A stretch of DNA of 53,076 bases from Planctomycetia bacterium (GTDB lineage Bacteria; Planctomycetota; Planctomycetia; Pirellulales; JALHLM01): NCBI GenBank assembly GCA_034440135.1, contig JAWXBP010000379.1, forward strand, positions 1 through 53,076, read 5' to 3'. The notes below the pieces were generated by a model that did not search any database, was not told the origin of the DNA, and was given only the letters and a program-made list of their open reading frames with translations. Positions within the stretch are counted from its first letter, which is position 1. Each line of letters starts with the position of its first letter. Made by a program: the position numbers and the translations under genes. This document shows positions 926 through 52,794 of this stretch, piece by piece.

Positions 926-2069
926 GTTGTCCTCCCAGAACGAGTTGATAAGTCTTGGCTTTGCGTCGCCACCGATCGCAACCCTTGCTGATTTCGAGCC
1001 GATCTTCTTTGACCAATTCGCGAAGGCACTTACTCGCGTAAGGTTGACTGCATCCCACGATTCCGGCGGCGGTTTCGCCAGCCAAATAAAACCTGCCTTT
1101 GTTCCATGCACCGAGGACCTGGCAGAGATGCCACACTCGTTCCGCCGCAGACGCCTCGGGAGCGGGATCGTAGGCCGCGATCAGCCGGGCCAATGCTTGA
1201 CGGTTATTGAGGCGAACGTGCTCCCACGCGAAACAGAATTGCCGCCAGTTCGACTGGTAGCTCTTGTCTTCGACATAGGCCTTCGACTGAATCCGAGCAT
1301 GCCAATCGGCGAATACATTCGACAACTGGTTCACCGTGACGGCGTCGCCAAACAGGCCACGCAGGTATCGCACGAACGCGAACAGTGCCCTGCCTCTCGT
1401 TCTCCGACCCAGGGGTTGATATCGCACGGCCGCCGCACGAGCCGCCAACCACATCGATAGAGCCACCCCCCCAGAAGCATCGTATTGATAGGATGAAATA
1501 GCCCCGCCTGTCCCCAGCAAAGCCTTGGGTAGGAGGTCGTGGGGGTGGATGGTGGGGAGTTGCGAGAGGTCGGGGAGTGGACGGACCCAGCGATACTCGC
1601 GGCGTTGGTGTGGCTTCTTGGGCGTTGGTTCTCGCCAGCTTGGGTCCAGAGTGATGTAGTTGCCATCGCCTTTAATGTGATGGACCGGTGAGCGTTCAGA
1701 ATTGCCCACGCGATACGAGTGAGTATCACGCTGACCTTCGACGCCGAGAAAGTAAAAGTGCCAGCCCCTTGGACTGATGGCGTAAGGCAGACACTTAGCC
1801 AAATTGCGATGCCGCTTTTCGAAGTCTCGATAGGCCGCATAGTTGTCCAGGTCGATGGCCATCAAGCCCCGGGATGCGGAGCCGGTAAGCAATCCGATGT
1901 TGTGGCGATCATCGGCGAAGTGAGTTCGCAACTCAGTGGCACTAAAGCCACCATTACGAACAATCGACTTGTAGCGAATGGCTGGGGTGTTGGTATCCCG
2001 ACGCAGCGGGATCACCTCGCAGCCGAGTTCCTTGTAGCGGCAGGCCGCCTCATACATTGCGTTGGACAC
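918..2069 (-). CDS. Prim-Pol family DNA primase/polymerase with C-terminal winged-helix-like region
   Basis: A 383-residue protein with the bifunctional primase/polymerase N-terminal domain found in plasmid, phage and integrative-element replication proteins. Motif I is seen as AIDLDN (residues 71-76, metal-binding acidic residues). The second motif is SPRGWHFYF (99-107) and the third is HHIKGDGNYI (130-139). No helicase Walker motif follows; residues about 305-380 look like a DNA-binding winged helix. The start is GTG at 2069, with an in-frame ATG at 2057 as an alternative. It is coupled to the downstream ParB-like gene. Chromosomal genes rarely carry this domain, so it points to a mobile replicon. 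A role in priming replication of that element is inferred from family knowledge. Confidence 0.8.
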   Translation of the reverse strand: MSNAMYEAACRYKELGCEVIPLRRDTNTPAIRYKSIVRNGGFSATELRTHFADDRHNIGLLTGSASRGLMAIDLDNYAAYRDFEKRHRNLAKCLPYAISPRGWHFYFLGVEGQRDTHSYRVGNSERSPVHHIKGDGNYITLDPSWREPTPKKPHQRREYRWVRPLPDLSQLPTIHPHDLLPKALLGTGGAISSYQYDASGGVALSMWLAARAAAVRYQPLGRRTRGRALFAFVRYLRGLFGDAVTVNQLSNVFADWHARIQSKAYVEDKSYQSNWRQFCFAWEHVRLNNRQALARLIAAYDPAPEASAAERVWHLCQVLGAWNKGRFYLAGETAAGIVGCSQPYASKCLRELVKEDRLEISKGCDRWRRKAKTYQLVLGGQHD

Positions 2070-2493
2070 TTGACGTCATCCATTCCGCCAAGCGACCGGC
2101 CACGTCTATAATGACGTTGGACTGACTGACTGAACGCTGGGCAATTTGAACTGGCCCGCACATGCCCGGGGGAAGGAGTGATGACCTTCTCCCGGGTTTC
2201 TAATCTCGCCAGCCGCCGGGCCATATCGCGGTCTGGGTTTCCTTGGGGTTTCCATAGCTGTTGCCTTTGGATTGGTGTGTGACTGCGTGAATCGTATGCG
2301 GCAACTAACCGTTAGACCGCACTGGTACAGCTTGTACATCTCCTTTGTTCAATGAGTGCAAGTAATGAGTGCCTTTGCAGACCTTTTCTTGCGTTGACGC
2401 GTGGCCAGGTCGAAAGATGACCGGAGAATAGTGGAGGTCATCGCCCGATGTTTAGGTTGCCAAGGCAACCCTGACGATGAGCCATCCTTGCCC
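2070..2493. other. Gene-free stretch between the primase gene and the cut MFS gene
   Basis: I see no convincing gene in these 424 bases. The two short minus-strand reading frames here have no recognisable motif. The stretch holds a TGACGTCA palindrome (2071-2078) just upstream of the primase start, a tetranucleotide run of ACTG units (2121-2131), a 12-base hairpin (2165-2196), two direct copies of AATGAGTGC (2351-2359 and 2364-2372), and an attachment-site-like arrangement at 2444-2505. Such a mix suits a replication or recombination control region, but no function is shown. Confidence 0.4.
2165..2196. repeat. Inverted repeat, 12-base stem with 8-base loop
   Basis: The arms 2165-2176 and 2185-2196 pair over 12 positions with one G-T mismatch. 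The loop is AGTGATGA. On the plus strand the right arm is followed by TTTCT, so it could act as a weak terminator. It could equally be an operator or origin structure upstream of the primase gene. Confidence 0.45.
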
Positions 2494-2505
2494 TTAACCC
2501 GATGT
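2444..2505. other. Attachment-site-like junction between the element and the MFS gene
   Basis: Two direct copies of CCCGATGT (2444-2451 and 2498-2505) flank a short segment containing the near-palindrome GGTTGCC-AA-GGCAACC (2455-2470). The MFS reading frame loses homology-like sequence and stops at 2494, exactly at the right-hand copy. This is the arrangement expected of a recombination junction, but the second end of the element is outside the window. Confidence 0.3.
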
Positions 2506-3558
2506 GAGGCTCGGCAGGCCAACGTTCAGGCCGACGTACCAGGACCACAACAGAAATGCGCCGGCGATCCAATAGCGATGCGCAGGCGTCGCCATGAGAA
2601 AGCACAGCGGCGCGGCGGCCACGCAAAGTTGCGACGCGATCAACACCGGACGATGTCCGAGGCGATCGCACAACACGCCGGCGGGCCGACTCAGCGCGAA
2701 CTGCCCCAGCCGCATCCCGGTCCGCAACGCGTTCATCTCGAACACGCCGAGTCCCAAGATCCAGCGCGGATACGTCTGCTGCGGCGATGCGGTCAAACCG
2801 TTAAACGTGGAGAACCAGCAACCGTAGTAAAGCAATCGCCGAAACCGCGAGTCCGCGAACGGCGCCAGGATTTCCCGCCAACGAAACGAAGTCGCGGCAC
2901 GGCGCGGAGAATTGCCGGGCCGAGGCAGCGCCAACAATGCGCCGACCGACGCAAACAGGAATAGCACGCCAATCGCCAGCGCGACGGCATAGGCGACAAG
3001 CTTCGCCTCCGGATGCGCTTTGCCCCAGGCGTCAATCAGGTAGCCGCTCAGCAGGATAACCGGAATCTCGATCGATAGTTGCCAGAACTGCCGCGCGCCA
3101 AAGTACGTGCCGCGTATCCGCCGGGGCACAAGATCGCCCAACCAGGCGTACAGCGCAACGAGTCCCAGATATTCCAGCGTCTGATGAACGCAAAGCACCC
3201 CGATCAAGCCCAACAGCGGACGCTGTAGCTGCGCCGCGCCGGCGAGATAAGCCACGGCCGGCATGCCGATCGCCACCAGATAGCTCGCCGTCATCAACGC
3301 GACGCAAGCGCGCTTGACGTCGCCGCCGGTGCGGTGGATGACCCACGGCGTCGCCAAGCGCAATAAGCCTAGTAGCGTCGGCAAGGCGAGTAGAAAGCCC
3401 ACGACAGTATTCTTCGCGCCAAACTCCATCGCCAAAAAATAAAGCGGCGTGCCCGAGGTCAGCGCGTTGCCGGCGGACCACAGCACCGCCTGCACATGCG
3501 CCGTCCGCCAAGCGCGACGTCGAGGGCTGAGCGGTCGAGTAATGCGCTGCGAAGGCAT
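2494..3558 (-). CDS. MFS-type transporter, C-terminally truncated
   Basis: A 354-residue membrane protein of the major facilitator type, with about nine to ten hydrophobic helices after a basic N-terminus rich in Arg. A typical family member has 12 helices and 400 or more residues. Here the reading frame ends in GLNVGLPSLTSG straight after a helix, and no other frame downstream continues with membrane helices. I read this as a gene cut at its 3' end by the neighbouring mobile element, not as a frameshift. It probably no longer makes a working transporter. It lies 54 bases downstream of another MFS gene on the same strand. Confidence 0.7.
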   Translation of the reverse strand: MPSQRITRPLSPRRRAWRTAHVQAVLWSAGNALTSGTPLYFLAMEFGAKNTVVGFLLALPTLLGLLRLATPWVIHRTGGDVKRACVALMTASYLVAIGMPAVAYLAGAAQLQRPLLGLIGVLCVHQTLEYLGLVALYAWLGDLVPRRIRGTYFGARQFWQLSIEIPVILLSGYLIDAWGKAHPEAKLVAYAVALAIGVLFLFASVGALLALPRPGNSPRRAATSFRWREILAPFADSRFRRLLYYGCWFSTFNGLTASPQQTYPRWILGLGVFEMNALRTGMRLGQFALSRPAGVLCDRLGHRPVLIASQLCVAAAPLCFLMATPAHRYWIAGAFLLWSWYVGLNVGLPSLTSG

Positions 3559-39665: not shown

Positions 39666-41879
39666 GTGACCGCGTCCACCGAACGTACCGAAGGGCAGTC
39701 TCCCGACGAACGGCGTCAGGCGATCGAATTGAGTCTGCGGCGCACCCGGCCGCCGGGGCAGGCCCCTGGTTTCGAGCCCCAGGAGTTCCTCGGCGCGGGG
39801 GCCTATGGCGAGGTTTGGGTGGCGATCGACCGCAACACCGGGCGGCGCGTGGCTATCAAGTTCTACTCGCATCATGGGGGACTCGACTGGTCGCTGCTGA
39901 CGCGCGAGGTCGAAAAGCTGCGATTCCTGTTCGCCGATCGCTACGTCGTGCAACTGATCGCCGTCGGCTGGGATGCCGATCCTCCCTACTACGTCATGGA
40001 ATACGTGGAGCGCGGCTCGCTCGCTAAACGCTTGGGCGAGGTCGGGCGGTTGCCGGTCGAAGAGGCGACGCGTGTGTTCAGGGACGTAGCCATCGGGCTA
40101 GTGCACGCCCACGGCAAGGGCGTGCTGCACTGCGATCTCAAGCCGGCCAACGTGTTATTAGATCAAGACGGTCGACCCCGGCTCGCCGATTTCGGCCAGG
40201 CACGGCTCTCGCATGAGCAAACTCCCTCGCTTGGTACGCTGTTTTATATGGCGCCGGAGCAAGCCGATCTCCAAGCGGCGCCCGACGCACGGTGGGACGT
40301 CTACGCGCTTGGGGCTTTGCTGTACACGATGCTTGTTGGCGAGCCGCCGCATCGTTCGCCCCGCACGGTCACGGCCCTGGAGCAGCCCAGCGGCCTGGCG
40401 CACCGGTTGGAACGCTATCGTGAACTGCTGCGCAATGACCCGCTTCCCGACGCCCATCGCAAAACGCCGGGCGTCGATCGGGCGCTGGCGGAAATCCTGG
40501 AACGGTGCCTGGAGATCGATCCCGACAATCGCTATCCCAACGTACAGGCGGTGCTCGATGCCTTGCGTGCGCGCGACGCCCGGCGGTCGAGACAACCGTT
40601 GATCTTGCTCGGCGCCTTGGGCCCGCTGTTGTTGATGGCGGTGATGGCATTTTTTGCCTGGCGCGGTTTCGAGGCCGCATATAAGGTCGCCGATCAGGAG
40701 CTGACGAAAAAAGCTCTGGACAGCAAGCAGTACTACGCGCGGTTCGTGGCGAACGCCGCGGCGTACGAATTGGAACGCCGCTTCGAACTGGTGGAAGACA
40801 TTGCCGCGGAGAGCGAGTTTCGTCAGCGTCTCGCTCCGTTGATCGACGACGAGGCGCTGCGGCCAACCATGGAGCGACTCAGCGCTTCGGCATTCGCCGT
40901 TCCCGACAATCAACTCACTCCAACGTTGCGGGCGGAACAGACCGCACTGCAGGAGACGTTGCTGGAGAATCAAGCCCGGTTGTATTTGGAAGATTATTTC
41001 CAGCAAAAACTCAGCAACGTCCGCGGCATCAAAGTGGCGAGCTGGTTTTTCACCGACACGCGGGGCCTTCAAATCGTCCGCGTACCGTCGAATCGAGTGA
41101 ACATCGGCTCGAACTTCGGTTGGCGCACCTATTTTCATGGCGGCCCGCTGGAGCAGCCCTCGACGTGGCGACCCGGCCCGAACGATCACGTCCAAGAGAC
41201 GCAACTCTCGGCGGTGTTTCAAAGTACCAGCTCGAATCTTTGGGTCGTCGGCATTTCCACGCCCGTCTATCGCGGCGACGAATTCTTGGGCGTGCTGGCG
41301 CTCACGGTCGAAGTCGGGCAGTTCGCCGATCTGCGAGGCAGTGGGCAGAATCGCGAGTTCGCGGTGATGGTCGACGGCCGAACGAGCAACCCGGGCGTCA
41401 TCGTCCAGCACGAGTTGTTCACGAAGCTACTGGAACAAAAGCGCGGCGAGTTCTTGCGCCGTTTCCGTGACTATCGCGTGCCGATCGAGCAGATCGGCGA
41501 TACCGAGGACCGCTATCAAGACCCGTTCGCCAAAGACCTGCTCGGCGCCGATTACCGCGGCGATTGGCTGGCGGCAAAGACACCGGTCCGCGTGCGCGAC
41601 GAGGAGACCGGGCTCTTCGTGATCGTGCAGGAACGCTACGACGAAGCGATCGGCGAGGCCCTTTCGCCTCTCAAACGGGCCGCCATTACGCGCAGCCTGC
41701 TGGGCGTGGCGGCCATGGTAATCATCGTCACAGGACTCTGGGCCTACGTGATGCGTTCTTGGAATCAATCCACCAGCGTTGACGACCTGCGCGACGAGGG
41801 CGCCTTGCGTCCGACGAAAGATGACCCCACGCTGGACTTGCGGGCACGCGAAGAAACTCGCACGGAGCGGTCGGACTAA
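39666..41879 (+). CDS. Hanks-type Ser/Thr kinase with C-terminal Cache sensor (non-RD)
   Basis: A 737-residue membrane kinase. The kinase domain (about 38-300) has LGAGAYGEVWVA, VAIK, the catalytic loop HCDLKPANVLL (Cys in place of the Arg of HRD, so a non-RD kinase) and ADFGQAR. One membrane helix (about 313-333) leads to an extracytoplasmic dCache-like sensor (about 340-670), with GIKVASWFFTDTRGLQI and DEFLGVLALTVEV, and a second helix (about 676-697) returns to the cytoplasm. This is a receptor with the kinase first and the sensor last. GTG start with no clear ribosome site. Confidence 0.87.
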   Translation: MTASTERTEGQSPDERRQAIELSLRRTRPPGQAPGFEPQEFLGAGAYGEVWVAIDRNTGRRVAIKFYSHHGGLDWSLLTREVEKLRFLFADRYVVQLIAVGWDADPPYYVMEYVERGSLAKRLGEVGRLPVEEATRVFRDVAIGLVHAHGKGVLHCDLKPANVLLDQDGRPRLADFGQARLSHEQTPSLGTLFYMAPEQADLQAAPDARWDVYALGALLYTMLVGEPPHRSPRTVTALEQPSGLAHRLERYRELLRNDPLPDAHRKTPGVDRALAEILERCLEIDPDNRYPNVQAVLDALRARDARRSRQPLILLGALGPLLLMAVMAFFAWRGFEAAYKVADQELTKKALDSKQYYARFVANAAAYELERRFELVEDIAAESEFRQRLAPLIDDEALRPTMERLSASAFAVPDNQLTPTLRAEQTALQETLLENQARLYLEDYFQQKLSNVRGIKVASWFFTDTRGLQIVRVPSNRVNIGSNFGWRTYFHGGPLEQPSTWRPGPNDHVQETQLSAVFQSTSSNLWVVGISTPVYRGDEFLGVLALTVEVGQFADLRGSGQNREFAVMVDGRTSNPGVIVQHELFTKLLEQKRGEFLRRFRDYRVPIEQIGDTEDRYQDPFAKDLLGADYRGDWLAAKTPVRVRDEETGLFVIVQERYDEAIGEALSPLKRAAITRSLLGVAAMVIIVTGLWAYVMRSWNQSTSVDDLRDEGALRPTKDDPTLDLRAREETRTERSD

Positions 41880-46543: not shown

Positions 46544-48787
46544 TCACGACCGTCGCCAAGTGCCGCGGCGGATGGCGTGGCCGATGGCGTTGCTCATGAT
46601 GAATACACTGAGGCCGAGTGCGACGGCGAAGCCGAGCGCCAATTGGCTGGCAATGCCTTGCAAGCCGATCGCCTCGTCGGTCCGCTCCTGAATCACGACC
46701 CAGAACGGTGATCGCGGCACCGGCGCCAACGCCGCTAACCATTCGGCGTCGGGCGACATCGGGTCGACGTAGTCGTCCGTTGTGATCGGCTCGGTGGACA
46801 AAGTCCGCTCAACCGGTGCGGCGACATTGTCGACGCTCCTGAGATGGTCGAGGAGTTTGCCAGGCGCCATTTTCTCCGCCATCTCGCCAGCGTGCGTATA
46901 GCTGTGATGCACGATGATGCGGTGCTGCGGCACGACTTTGAGATCGGTCTTGGAGTCTGGGTCGTCGAGCGCCACGACCACCGTCTTGCGAGACTCGTCA
47001 TGCAACTCGCGCACGCCCAGATCGGCGTCGGTAGCAAATGTTCGGGCGACAATGCCGACGATCGCCCCTTCCGTTTCGGATTGGCGATCATAAATCGGCG
47101 CCACGATGGCGAACTTATGGAGCTTGCCTAGCCGACTGTGATACGGCCGGGAGATGTACGGCATCGACGGAGAAATCCAGCGGCCGTCTTTCACACAGCC
47201 GGACACATAGTCGCGCCAGCGCCAGTCGACGCCGACGAACTCCTCGGACTCCGGAACGCGCATCAGTCCCTTGCCGTTGGCGTCCAGCACAATCCACGTC
47301 GTCTCCGTCGAAGTGCCCCCCGCGGCCACGAACCCATGCGCGGGTGTCATGTACGCCTGCAACGCGGCGGAATCGCCCTCGCTGACCAATGCGGCTAGTT
47401 CCGCGCTGCGCGACGTGGCGAGCACCGGCTCGGCCAATTCATTGAGGCGATCGCGCACCGTATGCGCAACGTGCTCGGCGCTGTACACGAGACTTTGCCG
47501 CATCACGTCGCGCAGTTGGGTTTCCAGCGTCCGCGCCGTGGAGAACGCGAGGCTGCCGACGACCATCAACAACAGCAATGACGAAGCAATCAAGCCCGCC
47601 GCGACTGGGTTGCGCCGCGACCATCGCATCAAGCGCGCCGCCACATTGATCGGCCGCGCCTTGATCGGCTGACCCGTGAGGTAGCGATCCAGTTCTTCCT
47701 GCATCTCCCACGCCGCCGCGTAACGGCGCTGCGGGTCCTTCGCCAAGCACTTGAGGCAGATCGTCTCCAGGTCGCGCGGGACTTTGTTGTTCAACAGCCG
47801 CGGCGAAGCAGGCTCGGTGTCGAGCACTTGCATCAGCGTGTCCATTACCGTCGCGGCGCGGAACGGCGGGCGGCCGGTGAGCAACTCGTAAAGAATCGCG
47901 CCCAGCGAATACACATCGCTCGCCGGACCGATCTCGCCCATCCCCGGCCAGGCCTGTTCTGGCGGCATGTAGCTCGGCGTGCCAACGACCTGTCCCGTAT
48001 CGGTGAGCCCTTCCTGATGCACGCGCTTGGCCAAACCGAAGTCGGTGATCTGCGGGCGATCGTCCGCGTCGATCAGCACGTTGGACGGTTTCAAGTCGCG
48101 ATGCAGAATGCCGCGATCGTGCGCAAACTGAATCGCCATCGCCACGTCGCGCACATATTTCGCCGCGCGCTCGGCCTGCATCGGACGATCCCGCACCATC
48201 CGGCCAAGGTCGCTGCCGGGCACGTACTCCATCGAGAAATAATGATGCCCTTCGACCTCGCCGACTTCATAAATGTCGACGATGTTCTCATGGCTCAAGT
48301 TGGCCGCAGCCTCGGCCTCCTGACGAAATCGGGCCACGTCCTCCTTGGTCGCCAGTCGTCCAGTAAGAATCATCTTCACCGCGACCGTGCGGCCCAGGTT
48401 CAATTGCCGGGCCTTGAACACAATGCCCATGCCGCCTCGGGCGATTTCTTCCTGCAATTCGTATTCGCCGAAGATGGTGCCGGAGGCCGGCACTGACAAC
48501 TCGCCGGAAGTGCTGAAGGCCCCATGGACCGCATCGGCGATCTCGAATGGCTGAAAGGCCACGGTGTCCAATTGCGCGCTCTGTTCGAGCGACGGCGAAA
48601 TCGGGCCCGCCATGCGTTCGACGCAATTGGCCGTATCGAGGTAGGCGCAAAGCTCGTCGGCCAGATCCGGAAACGCGGCCCGCAACGCCTCCCGATCGAC
48701 GCGCTGCCCGGCGTCCATGCGCTCCATCAGCTCGGCCAGAATTTGGTCCGAGGCGTCATTCGGTTCGGGAGCGGCGACGGGTTTCAT
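46544..48787 (-). CDS. Hanks-type Ser/Thr kinase with C-terminal Cache sensor
   Basis: A 747-residue membrane kinase. The kinase domain (about 96-370) has IARGGMGIVFKARQ, VAVKMIL, HRDLKPSNVLI and TDFGLAK, plus PEQ in MPPEQAWPG; all key residues are present. A helix (about 393-415) leads to an extracytoplasmic Cache-like sensor (about 420-700: IVLDANGKGLMRVP, WRWRDYVSG) and a second helix (about 707-732) ends the protein. Its closest partner in this window is the kinase at 39666, which has the same layout. It converges on the aminotransferase gene, with a 29-base gap. Confidence 0.9.
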   Translation of the reverse strand: MKPVAAPEPNDASDQILAELMERMDAGQRVDREALRAAFPDLADELCAYLDTANCVERMAGPISPSLEQSAQLDTVAFQPFEIADAVHGAFSTSGELSVPASGTIFGEYELQEEIARGGMGIVFKARQLNLGRTVAVKMILTGRLATKEDVARFRQEAEAAANLSHENIVDIYEVGEVEGHHYFSMEYVPGSDLGRMVRDRPMQAERAAKYVRDVAMAIQFAHDRGILHRDLKPSNVLIDADDRPQITDFGLAKRVHQEGLTDTGQVVGTPSYMPPEQAWPGMGEIGPASDVYSLGAILYELLTGRPPFRAATVMDTLMQVLDTEPASPRLLNNKVPRDLETICLKCLAKDPQRRYAAAWEMQEELDRYLTGQPIKARPINVAARLMRWSRRNPVAAGLIASSLLLLMVVGSLAFSTARTLETQLRDVMRQSLVYSAEHVAHTVRDRLNELAEPVLATSRSAELAALVSEGDSAALQAYMTPAHGFVAAGGTSTETTWIVLDANGKGLMRVPESEEFVGVDWRWRDYVSGCVKDGRWISPSMPYISRPYHSRLGKLHKFAIVAPIYDRQSETEGAIVGIVARTFATDADLGVRELHDESRKTVVVALDDPDSKTDLKVVPQHRIIVHHSYTHAGEMAEKMAPGKLLDHLRSVDNVAAPVERTLSTEPITTDDYVDPMSPDAEWLAALAPVPRSPFWVVIQERTDEAIGLQGIASQLALGFAVALGLSVFIMSNAIGHAIRRGTWRRS

Positions 48788-49071: not shown

Positions 49072-49099
49072 TTGACACGTTAGTCGAATCTGCGACAAT
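49072..49099 (+). promoter_or_regulatory. Candidate sigma-70 promoter for murE
   Basis: A perfect TTGACA (49072-49077) and GACAAT (49094-49099, 4 of 6) are spaced 16 bases. The leader to the ATG at 49212 would be about 105 bases. Confidence 0.5.
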
Positions 49100-49211
49100 C
49101 CGCCCCGCAAATCAACCACCTGGGTGGTCGCCGCGAGGCAAGGATTGCCCCCGCACCGCCCCTTTTGCTCGACCTCGTTGAGTTCGTGCGTAGGCAAGGA
49201 GGCCTCACGCT

Positions 49212-50714
49212 ATGGGTGATCGGACCCCTCAGGTCCGCGGGATCAGTCTTCGCGAATTGCTGCCCCAGGCGGTGTTCCGCGGTGCGGCCGATATTCGCGT
49301 GACGAGTTGCTGCGGCGAGGCTCGCGGCTGCAAACGCGGCGATTTGTTCGTCGCGATTGCGGACGAAGCCGGCCCCAATGATCGCGCCATGCGATTGGCC
49401 CGCAAGCGCGGCGCCGTCGGCATGGTCACGGATCGCGCGATCGCCTCCGAGGAACTGCCGCTCTGCGTCGTGCCGGACTGCCGCGAAGCCTACGGACGGA
49501 TCTGCCACGCCCTCGTCGGCGATCCCAGCAAACAACTCAAAGTCATTGGCATCACGGGCACGCAAGGCAAGACAGTCACCAGCTACTTGGTCGCCGCGGT
49601 GCTGGAAGCCGGCGGCTTCTATGCCGGAGTGATGGGCACGCTCGGTTACTACGACGGCATCAAAGTCGCGCCAGCCGACAGTGCTACGCCGCAAGTGCCG
49701 GTGCTAGCCCGCTGGCTGGAGCGGATGCAATCGAACGGCTGCACGCACGCCGTGGTGGAAGTCTCGAATCGGGCCCTGGCCGAGGCTCGCCTGGCCGGCA
49801 TCACGCTCGACGCCGCCTGCATTACGAACATCACCCACGATCACCTCGATCAGCCAGGCTCCGACGAAAACTACCGTGCCGTGAAGCACCAGTTGTTTCA
49901 ACACCTGGCGCCGGAAGCGATCACCGTGCTGAACGCGGACGATCCTTCCTGCGACGCTTGCCTGCGGCTGCTAGACGGACCGATGTTGACCATCGGCATC
50001 GACCAGCCGGCCGAGGTCAGTGCGACGCCGCTGGAGCAATCGCGCGGCGAACAAACTTTCTTGCTGAGCGCCGGCAGTGAGACGATTCCCGTCCGCACGC
50101 CGCTGATCGGCACGCACAACATTTACAACTGCCTGACCGCCGCCGCGATGGGGCTGTCCTACGGCATCGACCTTCCCACCATCGTCCGCGGATTGGAAGC
50201 CTTGGACAAAATCCCTGGTCGCCTGGAACGCCTCGAATGTGGGCAGACCTTCGGCGTGTTCATTGACGACGCACGCACGGTGGAAAGCCTCGCCGGCAGT
50301 TTGGCCACATTGCGAAACGTGACGGAAGGCCGCTTGATCTGTGTCTTCGGCGCCGTCGGAGAACGCGATCGCGCCAAACGACCGCTCTTAGGCGCGGTCG
50401 TCGAGAATGCGGCCGACCTCGCGGTGTTGACCACCGACAATCCCCACGACGAGGACCCGCGCCGCATCGCCGGCGACGTCCTCTCAGGTTTCGATCATCC
50501 TGGACGCGTACACGTGGAACCGGATCGCGCGGATGCGATTTGCTGGGCGCTCAATCAAGCGCAGCCCGGCGATTGCATCTTGATCGCGGGCCGCGGCAAC
50601 AGCGCCCACCAAATCATCGCCGGCAAACGCATCCCGCTCGACGACCGAGAAGTCGCCCGCGACTGGCTCTACGAAGCCATCGCCCCGCGCGAAATGTTCC
50701 GGGCGGGAGCGTGA
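49212..50714 (+). CDS. murE: Divergent MurE-type UDP-MurNAc-dipeptide ligase
   Basis: A 500-residue Mur ligase with three domains. The ATP loop is ITGTQGKTVTSY (about 114-125; usual N is Q). The carbamylated-Lys segment reads YRAVKHQLF (about 221-229). DHLDQPGSDENY follows the family. In MurE, the DNPR motif selects diaminopimelate; here residues 409-416 read DNPHDEDP, with His for Arg. The usual SSHAL and YAHTPDAL motifs read SNRAL and DARTVESL. So it may be a true but altered MurE (third amino acid uncertain) or a paralogue. AAGGAGG lies 12 bases before the ATG. No other mur gene is adjacent. Confidence 0.8.
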   Translation: MGDRTPQVRGISLRELLPQAVFRGAADIRVTSCCGEARGCKRGDLFVAIADEAGPNDRAMRLARKRGAVGMVTDRAIASEELPLCVVPDCREAYGRICHALVGDPSKQLKVIGITGTQGKTVTSYLVAAVLEAGGFYAGVMGTLGYYDGIKVAPADSATPQVPVLARWLERMQSNGCTHAVVEVSNRALAEARLAGITLDAACITNITHDHLDQPGSDENYRAVKHQLFQHLAPEAITVLNADDPSCDACLRLLDGPMLTIGIDQPAEVSATPLEQSRGEQTFLLSAGSETIPVRTPLIGTHNIYNCLTAAAMGLSYGIDLPTIVRGLEALDKIPGRLERLECGQTFGVFIDDARTVESLAGSLATLRNVTEGRLICVFGAVGERDRAKRPLLGAVVENAADLAVLTTDNPHDEDPRRIAGDVLSGFDHPGRVHVEPDRADAICWALNQAQPGDCILIAGRGNSAHQIIAGKRIPLDDREVARDWLYEAIAPREMFRAGA

Positions 50715-51387: not shown

Positions 51388-52794
51388 CTAGCTACTGGAC
51401 GCGACCAGCATCGCCCGCACTTCCGCCGCGATGAAGAACGATCCCGTCACGCAAATCAACGAGTCCGCGCCGGCCGCGTCGCTTGCCAACCGCCACGCCT
51501 GCTCCGGCGTCGCGCACGGCGCGAAATTCGTCGCGCCCTGTTCATTCGCTAACGCCTCCAACGTCTCGATCGGCACGCCGCGCGGATTGTTCGAATAGCG
51601 CGTGAAGTAGATGTGATCGAATTCCGGCAACAGCACGCGCAACATCCCGGCGACGTCTTTATCCAGCGTCGTCGCGAACACCAGTAATCGCCGCCGCGAT
51701 TGAAAACATTCGTTGAGTGTCGCCACGAGCGCTTCCGCCGACGCCAAATTATGCGCGGCGTCGATGATCACCGTCGGGCGATCCGACCAGACCTCCACCC
51801 GCGCCGGCCAGCGCAGCGAGGCGAGACCACGACGTTGCGCGTCGTCCAAAATATGCCAACCTTCAGACCGCAACACAGCCAGCGACGTCAGCGCCACGGC
51901 GGCGTTCGTCGCCTGGTGTTGTCCCAGTAGGCCGATCGACACATCGTCGAGCCGGTACTCGAACGGCGGCCGATCGATTTGAAAATCAATGCGCCCCAGG
52001 AGCGCCGCGCGATCGACTTCGCCGGCGCGCTGTTTTGCACCCGCGCGGTACGTAAATCGAAAATCGCGATCGACTTCCAGCAACGGGCTGCCCCGTTCCG
52101 CGGCGATCTCCTGAATCACACGGCGCGCTGCTTCAGATCGCACCCCGCTCACGGTGGGCACGCCGGGTTTAATGATGCCGGCCTTCTCGCGCGCGATGGC
52201 GTCGAGCGTTTTCCCTAGTTGTCGCGTATGATCGAAGCTGATGCTGGTGATCACCGCGACGCGCGGCTGGCAGACGTTCGTGGAATCGAGTCGGCCGCCC
52301 AGCCCCACTTCCAGCACCGCCGCGGCCGCGCCGCGCCGGACAAAAAGCAGCAGTGCGATCGCCGTCGTCAATTCAAAAAACGTCGGACCGGTTTCATCAG
52401 GATCGCCCTCGGCGGCCGCGTCCATCGCCGCCACGGCCGGCCGTAGCATGTCGACTAACTCGGCCAACTCATTCCCTTCGCAAGGCAGTCCATCGACGGT
52501 GAACCGCTCCTCAATGCGATGCAAATGCGGCGAGCAGTACAGACCAGTCCGGTAGCCCGCCGCGGTCAACATTCCCGCGATCATCGCGGCCGTGGAGCCT
52601 TTCCCCTTGCTGCCAGCCACATGCACGATCGGCAGCGTGTCCTGCGGGTTGCCGAGCCGAGCCAGTAATTCCCGCATCCGGGCCAGTTTCAGCCGCCGCT
52701 CGCTGTAAGGCGTGACGACGAAGCGCTCGAAATCGATCCGGCCGAGCAAGAATTGCAACGCCTGTTCCCGCGCGCCGTCAGAATCAGCCGCCAT
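51388..52794 (-). CDS. folC: Folylpolyglutamate synthase / dihydrofolate synthase
   Basis: A 468-residue cytoplasmic Mur-superfamily ligase. The ATP loop is VHVAGSKGKGSTAAM (about 61-75), followed by TGLYCSPHLHRIEERF and EVGLGGRLDSTNV (metal-binding Glu and Asp), then SFDHTRQLG and AREKAGIIKPG, the family's hallmark. IIDAAHNLASAEALV is the C-terminal domain signature. It adds glutamate to dihydropteroate or folates. ATG 52794. It converges on the repeat island after murE; the tRNA gene upstream is on the opposite strand. Confidence 0.93.
   Translation of the reverse strand: MAADSDGAREQALQFLLGRIDFERFVVTPYSERRLKLARMRELLARLGNPQDTLPIVHVAGSKGKGSTAAMIAGMLTAAGYRTGLYCSPHLHRIEERFTVDGLPCEGNELAELVDMLRPAVAAMDAAAEGDPDETGPTFFELTTAIALLLFVRRGAAAAVLEVGLGGRLDSTNVCQPRVAVITSISFDHTRQLGKTLDAIAREKAGIIKPGVPTVSGVRSEAARRVIQEIAAERGSPLLEVDRDFRFTYRAGAKQRAGEVDRAALLGRIDFQIDRPPFEYRLDDVSIGLLGQHQATNAAVALTSLAVLRSEGWHILDDAQRRGLASLRWPARVEVWSDRPTVIIDAAHNLASAEALVATLNECFQSRRRLLVFATTLDKDVAGMLRVLLPEFDHIYFTRYSNNPRGVPIETLEALANEQGATNFAPCATPEQAWRLASDAAGADSLICVTGSFFIAAEVRAMLVASSS

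Follow-up and report, generated by a model that had tools for sequence, protein, structure and literature searches.

Mur ligases proceed through an acyl phosphate, and their fold, together with ATP-dependent formation of an amide bond, is also found in FolC, PgsB/CapB, and cyanophycin synthetase. In the MurE that adds meso-diaminopimelate (DAP), Asn and Arg of the DNPR motif bind the DAP carboxylate, and Asp of the same motif and Glu-468 (469 in the numbering used here) bind the side-chain amine; the L-Lys-adding MurE of the Staphylococcus aureus type departs from this motif too, with DNPA in S. aureus (excerpts of PMC3829189). For plants without MurA-MurD, MurE has been suggested either to have taken on an alternative catalytic role or to serve as a scaffold in the plastid RNA polymerase (excerpt of PMC12681378). 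The presence of peptidoglycan in Pirellulales is disputed. In its excerpted text, one study claims essential peptidoglycan genes in all analyzed species and describes both muramic acid and sacculi, with chemical evidence from Rhodopirellula (PMC4432640), whereas a gene survey found most of the pathway lost, with murA, C, D, F, G, J and ftsW gone and murB kept in Pirellulales, Isosphaerales, and Gemmatales (excerpts of PMC12283558). Moreover, murE has been called semi-conserved in Planctomycetia (excerpt of PMC10632474). The few genes said to remain, murB and to some extent murE, lend weight to the view that Pirellulales make peptidoglycan. In the excerpts that made up the searched literature, no account was found of planctomycete MurE or MurB proteins losing motifs, and the report probably nearest to this subject, Mahajan 2020 (doi 10.1093/gbe/evaa159), lay outside that search.

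The window analyzed here is a stretch of 53,076 nucleotides (positions 1 to 53,076 of contig JAWXBP010000379.1, assembly GCA_034440135.1) from a Pirellulales planctomycete. It carries a MurE-type ligase gene at 49212..50714 on the forward strand, with ATG at 49212 and the stop at 50714, which encodes a complete 500-aa Mur ligase containing Mur_ligase_M and Mur_ligase_C domains. An AAGGAGG Shine-Dalgarno-like sequence, read directly, is located at 49196..49202 (+), 9 nt before the ATG, and a promoter-like TTGACA-16-GACAAT at 49072..49099 (+) is a consensus match only (1 found vs 0.6 expected in shuffles). The protein reached 374.2 bits against TIGR01085 (murE; cut-off 257.3), and by profile and gene tree it belongs to the same family as the DAP-adding MurE (EC 6.3.2.13). 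It also passes NF001126, the NCBI equivalog model of DAP-adding MurE (386.3 bits, cut-off 373); the DAP-ligase name that this model would give it is probably wrong. Against the models for FolC and cyanophycin synthetase, its scores are far under the respective cut-offs. The convergent neighbor at 51388..52794 (-) is folC, which encodes another protein of the Mur-ligase fold (TIGR01499, 375 bits) and adjoins murE in a congener metagenome-assembled genome (MAG) as well. The neighbors of murE in the window (kinase, aminotransferase, and folC) are not common to other orphan loci outside the genus, and these neighbors yielded no substrate clue. At 39666-41879 (+) and 46544-48787 (-), the window encodes two protein kinases (737 and 747 aa) whose C-terminal parts give weak Cache-like matches. 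The predicted structure of the ligase, based on three input sequences, had a pLDDT of 49.7, and all matches listed in a plasmid search were below 60% identity.

We aligned the protein with E. coli MurE and 24 MurEs of Pirellulales genomes having MurA and MurF; residue numbers are those of E. coli MurE including the initiator Met, and literature numbers are one lower. The three altered motifs reported in a preliminary description of this DNA are all present in the translation and the alignment: SNRAL (residues 185-189 of the protein; 49764..49778, +) replaces SSHAL, DARTVESL (353-360; 50268..50291, +) replaces YAHTPDAL with the preceding Asp (D352) kept, and DNPH (409-412; 50436..50447, +) replaces DNPR, Asp and Asn being retained and Arg changed to His. 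The changes extend beyond that description. GRGNS (460-464; 50589..50603, +) replaces GKGHE (H468->N and E469->S), by which a second DAP contact is lost, and T158->A, Q191->E, and D363->E were also found. The sites of S186->N, H187->R, H360->R, and R417->H are invariant in 24/24 pathway-bearing Pirellulales MurEs. The UDP end is altered as well, with DSR changed to EAR, and PNDRA where most pathway genomes read DGHDF. The ATP and carbamyl-Lys features, as already described, remain: the P-loop ITGTQGKT (114-121; 49551..49574, +) carries N118->Q and retains K120 and T121 within GTQGKT, residue scoring finds the carbamate-lysine equivalent K225 (49884..49886, +) kept, and together with E183, H211, R342, and D357 all seven residues expected of a Mur ligase are in place. 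Also kept are R390, which we take to face DAP, and S185 and R193, which presumably face the UDP-MurNAc peptide side.

In total, 63 of the 76 columns invariant among the 24 pathway-bearing MurEs and E. coli are conserved, and the 13 changed ones are N118Q, T158A, S186N, H187R, Q191E, H215P, H360R, D363E, A364S, M398L, R417H, H468N, and E469S. Sites for ATP and acyl-phosphate chemistry are retained at 9/9 positions vs 8/16 for substrate sites (Fisher p 0.022, with site lists chosen by us); against the other invariant columns, their retention in this protein alone is not significantly higher (p 0.166). The separate congener MAG (83% complete) encodes a protein with 7 differences in 500 aa, none at a changed or kept motif site, and thus the altered motifs are not sequencing errors; because folC is also the neighbor there, a binning error was rejected too. 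The DNPR and Glu contacts of a meso-DAP-adding MurE are therefore missing (DNPH and Ser). A lysine-adding enzyme is also unlikely, since the protein has Ser where lysine-adding enzymes bind the lysine amine through an acidic Glu, and it scores 239.9 bits against NF010628 (cut-off 536).

The genome containing the window is a MAG of 7.29 Mb in 534 contigs (95.99% complete and 4.86% contaminated). Profile searches detected no second murE, as the preliminary description had advised checking. Only three Mur_ligase_M proteins are present, namely the window MurE, FolC, and PgsB, the latter two being separate genes, so that neither MurC nor MurD was found with this profile in the 96% complete MAG. Profile searches of this MAG also gave 0 matches for MurG and for penicillin-binding protein (PBP) transpeptidases, and best matches below the cut-off for MurA (66.7 bits vs 392.7; probably EPSP synthase), MraY (62.5 vs 192.05), and MurF (115.6 vs 288.6, the match being the window MurE itself). 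The congener MAG gave the same picture in the searches that included it, with 0 matches for MurG and transpeptidase and none above the cut-off for MurA, MurF, and MraY. Transpeptidase and over-cut-off MraY were absent from 6/6 further pathway-less genomes, five of them single-contig, and present in 4/4 pathway genomes; assembly gaps are thus not the general cause of the missing genes. Unlike the setting of a DAP-adding MurE, the pathway is missing both before and after the MurE step, the supply of substrate by MurA, MurC, and MurD was not found in the 96% complete MAG, and UDP-MurNAc-Ala-Glu is not expected in the cell. Poly-gamma-glutamate synthase genes are present in this pathway-less genome: in the 13643 region of contig C101 (locus 1237-3142), PgsB (470.8 bits vs a cut-off of 222.7) precedes PgsC (122.3 bits vs 96.45).

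The preliminary description had proposed that a residue other than DAP is added. Its view of the pocket stands, since R417 and E469 are gone; its premise of a peptidoglycan stem is not supported, because the pathway genes were not found, and a different third peptidoglycan residue is not the best reading of these sequences. We give a probability of roughly 0.6 to the reading that the window MurE is an ATP-dependent amide ligase which was orphaned when peptidoglycan synthesis was lost and which now acts on a new substrate.

We then compared MurEs across 117 Pirellulales genomes, in which over-cut-off profile matches were obtained for MurE in 57, MurF in 28, MurA in 25, and MurG in 15. MurE-like proteins from 96 genomes were scored for residues, and 21 genomes without a usable full-length MurE were left out. 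The DAP contacts R390, N415, R417, and E469 are all intact in 23/24 genomes with MurA and MurF (counting G002, whose MurF of 254 bits is below the cut-off of 288.6) and in 2/68 with neither, one of these two being G011, which is pathway-less by this rule yet has MurA pieces (Fisher p 2.5e-18, ignoring relatedness, as do all Fisher tests here). The Arg of DNPR is kept in 24/24 vs 5/68 and the Glu of GKGHE in 24/24 vs 14/68; H187 of SSHAL is found in 24/24, and Glu and Arg are the commonest residues at this site in the pathway-less sets. All seven chemistry residues are kept in 24/24 vs 32/68, where the assignment of E. coli residues to chemistry or substrate is partly our own and the G049 protein, counted as pathway-less, may come from a different Mur-ligase family. 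Genomes with one of MurA and MurF have an intact pocket in 3/4 and intact chemistry residues in 3/4. In each of the 32 chemistry-intact orphan MurEs, two or more DAP contacts are gone. The preliminary description took altered motifs in other planctomycetes with standard DAP muropeptides as an argument against its proposal. Many planctomycetes do share such motifs, but the deviation tracks pathway loss, with a changed pocket in 66/68 genomes without MurA and MurF vs 1/24 with both, and in this respect the altered motifs are meaningful.

Pathway loss and DAP-pocket loss are therefore common to the window MurE and other Pirellulales orphan MurEs (families f15, f8, f3, f7, and others; f, g, and G numbers denote families, genera, and genomes of the present survey), and the substitutions vary by clade. 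All seven chemistry residues are kept in f1 (2/2), f8 (13/15), and f15 (11/13), and they are lost in genus g3 of f3 and in most orphan MurEs of f7. Since 36/68 pathway-less genomes have lost at least one chemistry residue while their reading frames stay open, retention of MurE does not imply catalysis. The protein might accordingly be a pseudoenzyme, a folded MurE kept for contacts with, for example, division or transcription proteins, ATP perhaps only stabilizing the fold. Such a role has a precedent in plant MurE/PAP11 of the plastid RNA polymerase, which is the second-best PDB match of the window MurE and was likewise kept after most Mur genes were lost and used otherwise; most plant proteins, however, keep DNPR or DNPK, and the seed-plant protein has a long N-terminal extension, neither of which applies to the window MurE (plant data from excerpts of PMC9434261 and PMC12681378). 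We regard a scaffold as possible but doubtful, because the window MurE keeps 9/9 chemistry sites and a pure scaffold would not need the seven residues that f1, f8, and f15 have largely conserved. An active ligase is preferred because it is the chemistry residues that have been retained, above all in f8: its far more diverged orthologues retain 37/76 invariant columns and 9/9 chemistry sites (3/3 tested; p 0.0009). The f8 pocket columns align poorly, as the murE-model matches of this family stop at about position 363 of 472.

A class-wide survey of 148 Planctomycetia genomes showed a canonical MurE in family f22, with 4-10 Mur matches per genome, and no full-length MurE-like match in family f23 among the matches listed. 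The 14 examined orphan MurEs of family f21 (loci L138-L151) mostly keep Arg417 (13) together with GKG and have lost H211 (13) and E469 (14), an opposite mode of decay. In several places (L055, L065, L066, L069-L071, and L078), the orphan MurE has beside it a second, degenerate Mur ligase that resembles MurF in its position; those at L055 and L066 scored 85.6 and 88.4 bits against the murF model. In addition, MurG-like proteins of 115-252 bits were observed in genomes without over-cut-off MurA and MurF (G006, G007, G024, G047, G057, G067, G074, G080, G085, G090, G094, G098, G102, G106, G110, and G114).

Besides MurE, the genome of the window retains MurB (contig C56:29933-30748; 204.1 bits, cut-off 144.5). 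Its residues at Ser/Cys229, the proton donor, and Glu325, which we take to be the catalytic ones, are both changed (S229->Q and E325->D). The donor (Ser or Cys at E. coli position 229) is kept in 5/5 pathway genomes vs 1/16 of the pathway-less genomes examined, and Glu325 in 5/5 vs 5/16. Thus, dcw proteins can persist without their reaction, MurB having been kept after loss of the donor in 15/16 pathway-less genomes, as would also be expected if MurE were a scaffold. Judged by their residues, MurB and MurE, the persisting peptidoglycan genes, are both altered at positions of their native function. The retention of MurB, along with S185 and R193 in MurE, is also what would be expected if work on muramyl peptides continued, either in Mpl-like salvage of imported peptidoglycan fragments or in building a minimal, hidden peptidoglycan whose third residue is unusual, and a partly hidden muramic-acid route may exist in this genome since MurB persists. 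We nevertheless consider this improbable, because MurA, C, D, F, G, MraY, and PBP transpeptidase were not found in the genome, the UDP end of MurE is changed (DSR to EAR, and the DGHDF stretch), the genome's own MurB has lost both residues, and the score against the Mpl model (TIGR01081) was 37.8 bits vs a cut-off of 388.7.

In many genomes, the orphan murE still occupies the ancestral dcw locus, with shared neighbors (a divergent HTH/PTS-IIA gene, an uncharacterized gene, and RimO-like and PgsA-like genes, named partly by our own reading along with Pfam), and some of these loci also hold MurG, MurB, or a MurF remnant. A conserved divergent pair, consisting of a gene of ~290 aa without Pfam match and an HTH/PTS-EIIA gene, flanks murE in intact and eroded dcw loci (L043-L091). 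The order MurE - MurB - FtsQ-like persists in f8 and f13 (FtsQ-like being our reading of a protein without Pfam match), which would also suit a scaffold role. The genus of the window has lost the ancestral neighborhood, and a quick gene tree gives it no settled position. In this tree, orphan MurEs of f2, f3, f13, and f17 fall within or beside canonical relatives, and the f2, f3, and f17 orphans are each placed in their own family. Because orphan MurEs lie within pathway-bearing families, orphaning arose several times. Horizontal gain or paralogy was rejected by synteny for sister lineages and by the quick gene tree for several families.

The window murE is under strong purifying selection: compared with the congener, dN is 0.007, dS is 0.252, and dN/dS is 0.027. 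Elsewhere, dN/dS was 0.05-0.21 in the canonical genera tested, 0.04-0.09 in g30 orphans, 0.10-0.43 in f8 orphans, and 0.08-0.10, where computable, in orphans of f3 genus g3, all of these values including residues upstream of the true starts. Values well below 1 in chemistry-losing clades such as g3 are again consistent with a scaffold. A decaying relic on its way out might be suspected given that the pathway is gone and that other lineages, such as f23, seem MurE-free; it is, however, hardly credible for the window murE, whose dN/dS lies below that of canonical genera, whose frame has no internal stop, and which has a good ribosome-binding site. The situation is PAP11-like, in that the genome lacks the other pathway genes searched for except MurB and the gene is under purifying selection.

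Under the preferred reading of a repurposed amide ligase, the ancestral MurE of a Pirellulales planctomycete would have been orphaned as the remaining peptidoglycan precursor pathway disappeared, and would have been retained in a different role. ATP bound at the P-loop would phosphorylate a carboxylate, the carbamate lysine and Glu/His residues would hold metals, and an amine would attack the acyl phosphate. Both substrates would have changed, one no longer being meso-DAP and the other probably not a UDP-MurNAc peptide. We infer both that the window MurE is most likely still catalytic and that its substrates are new.

The mere presence of murB or murE is poor evidence of peptidoglycan, because without the pathway both genes lose residues for their native substrate or reaction. 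We tentatively suggest, more broadly, that in pathway-less budding planctomycetes MurE may have become, on repeated occasions, the ligase of a new, non-murein pathway (for an envelope, storage, or signaling conjugate), with acyl-phosphate chemistry kept, both substrates exchanged, and MurB rewired in parallel, and that such genomes would be miscounted as peptidoglycan-gene-bearing. A conserved ligase with an open substrate would offer a direct handle on the replacement of peptidoglycan, if any, in these bacteria.
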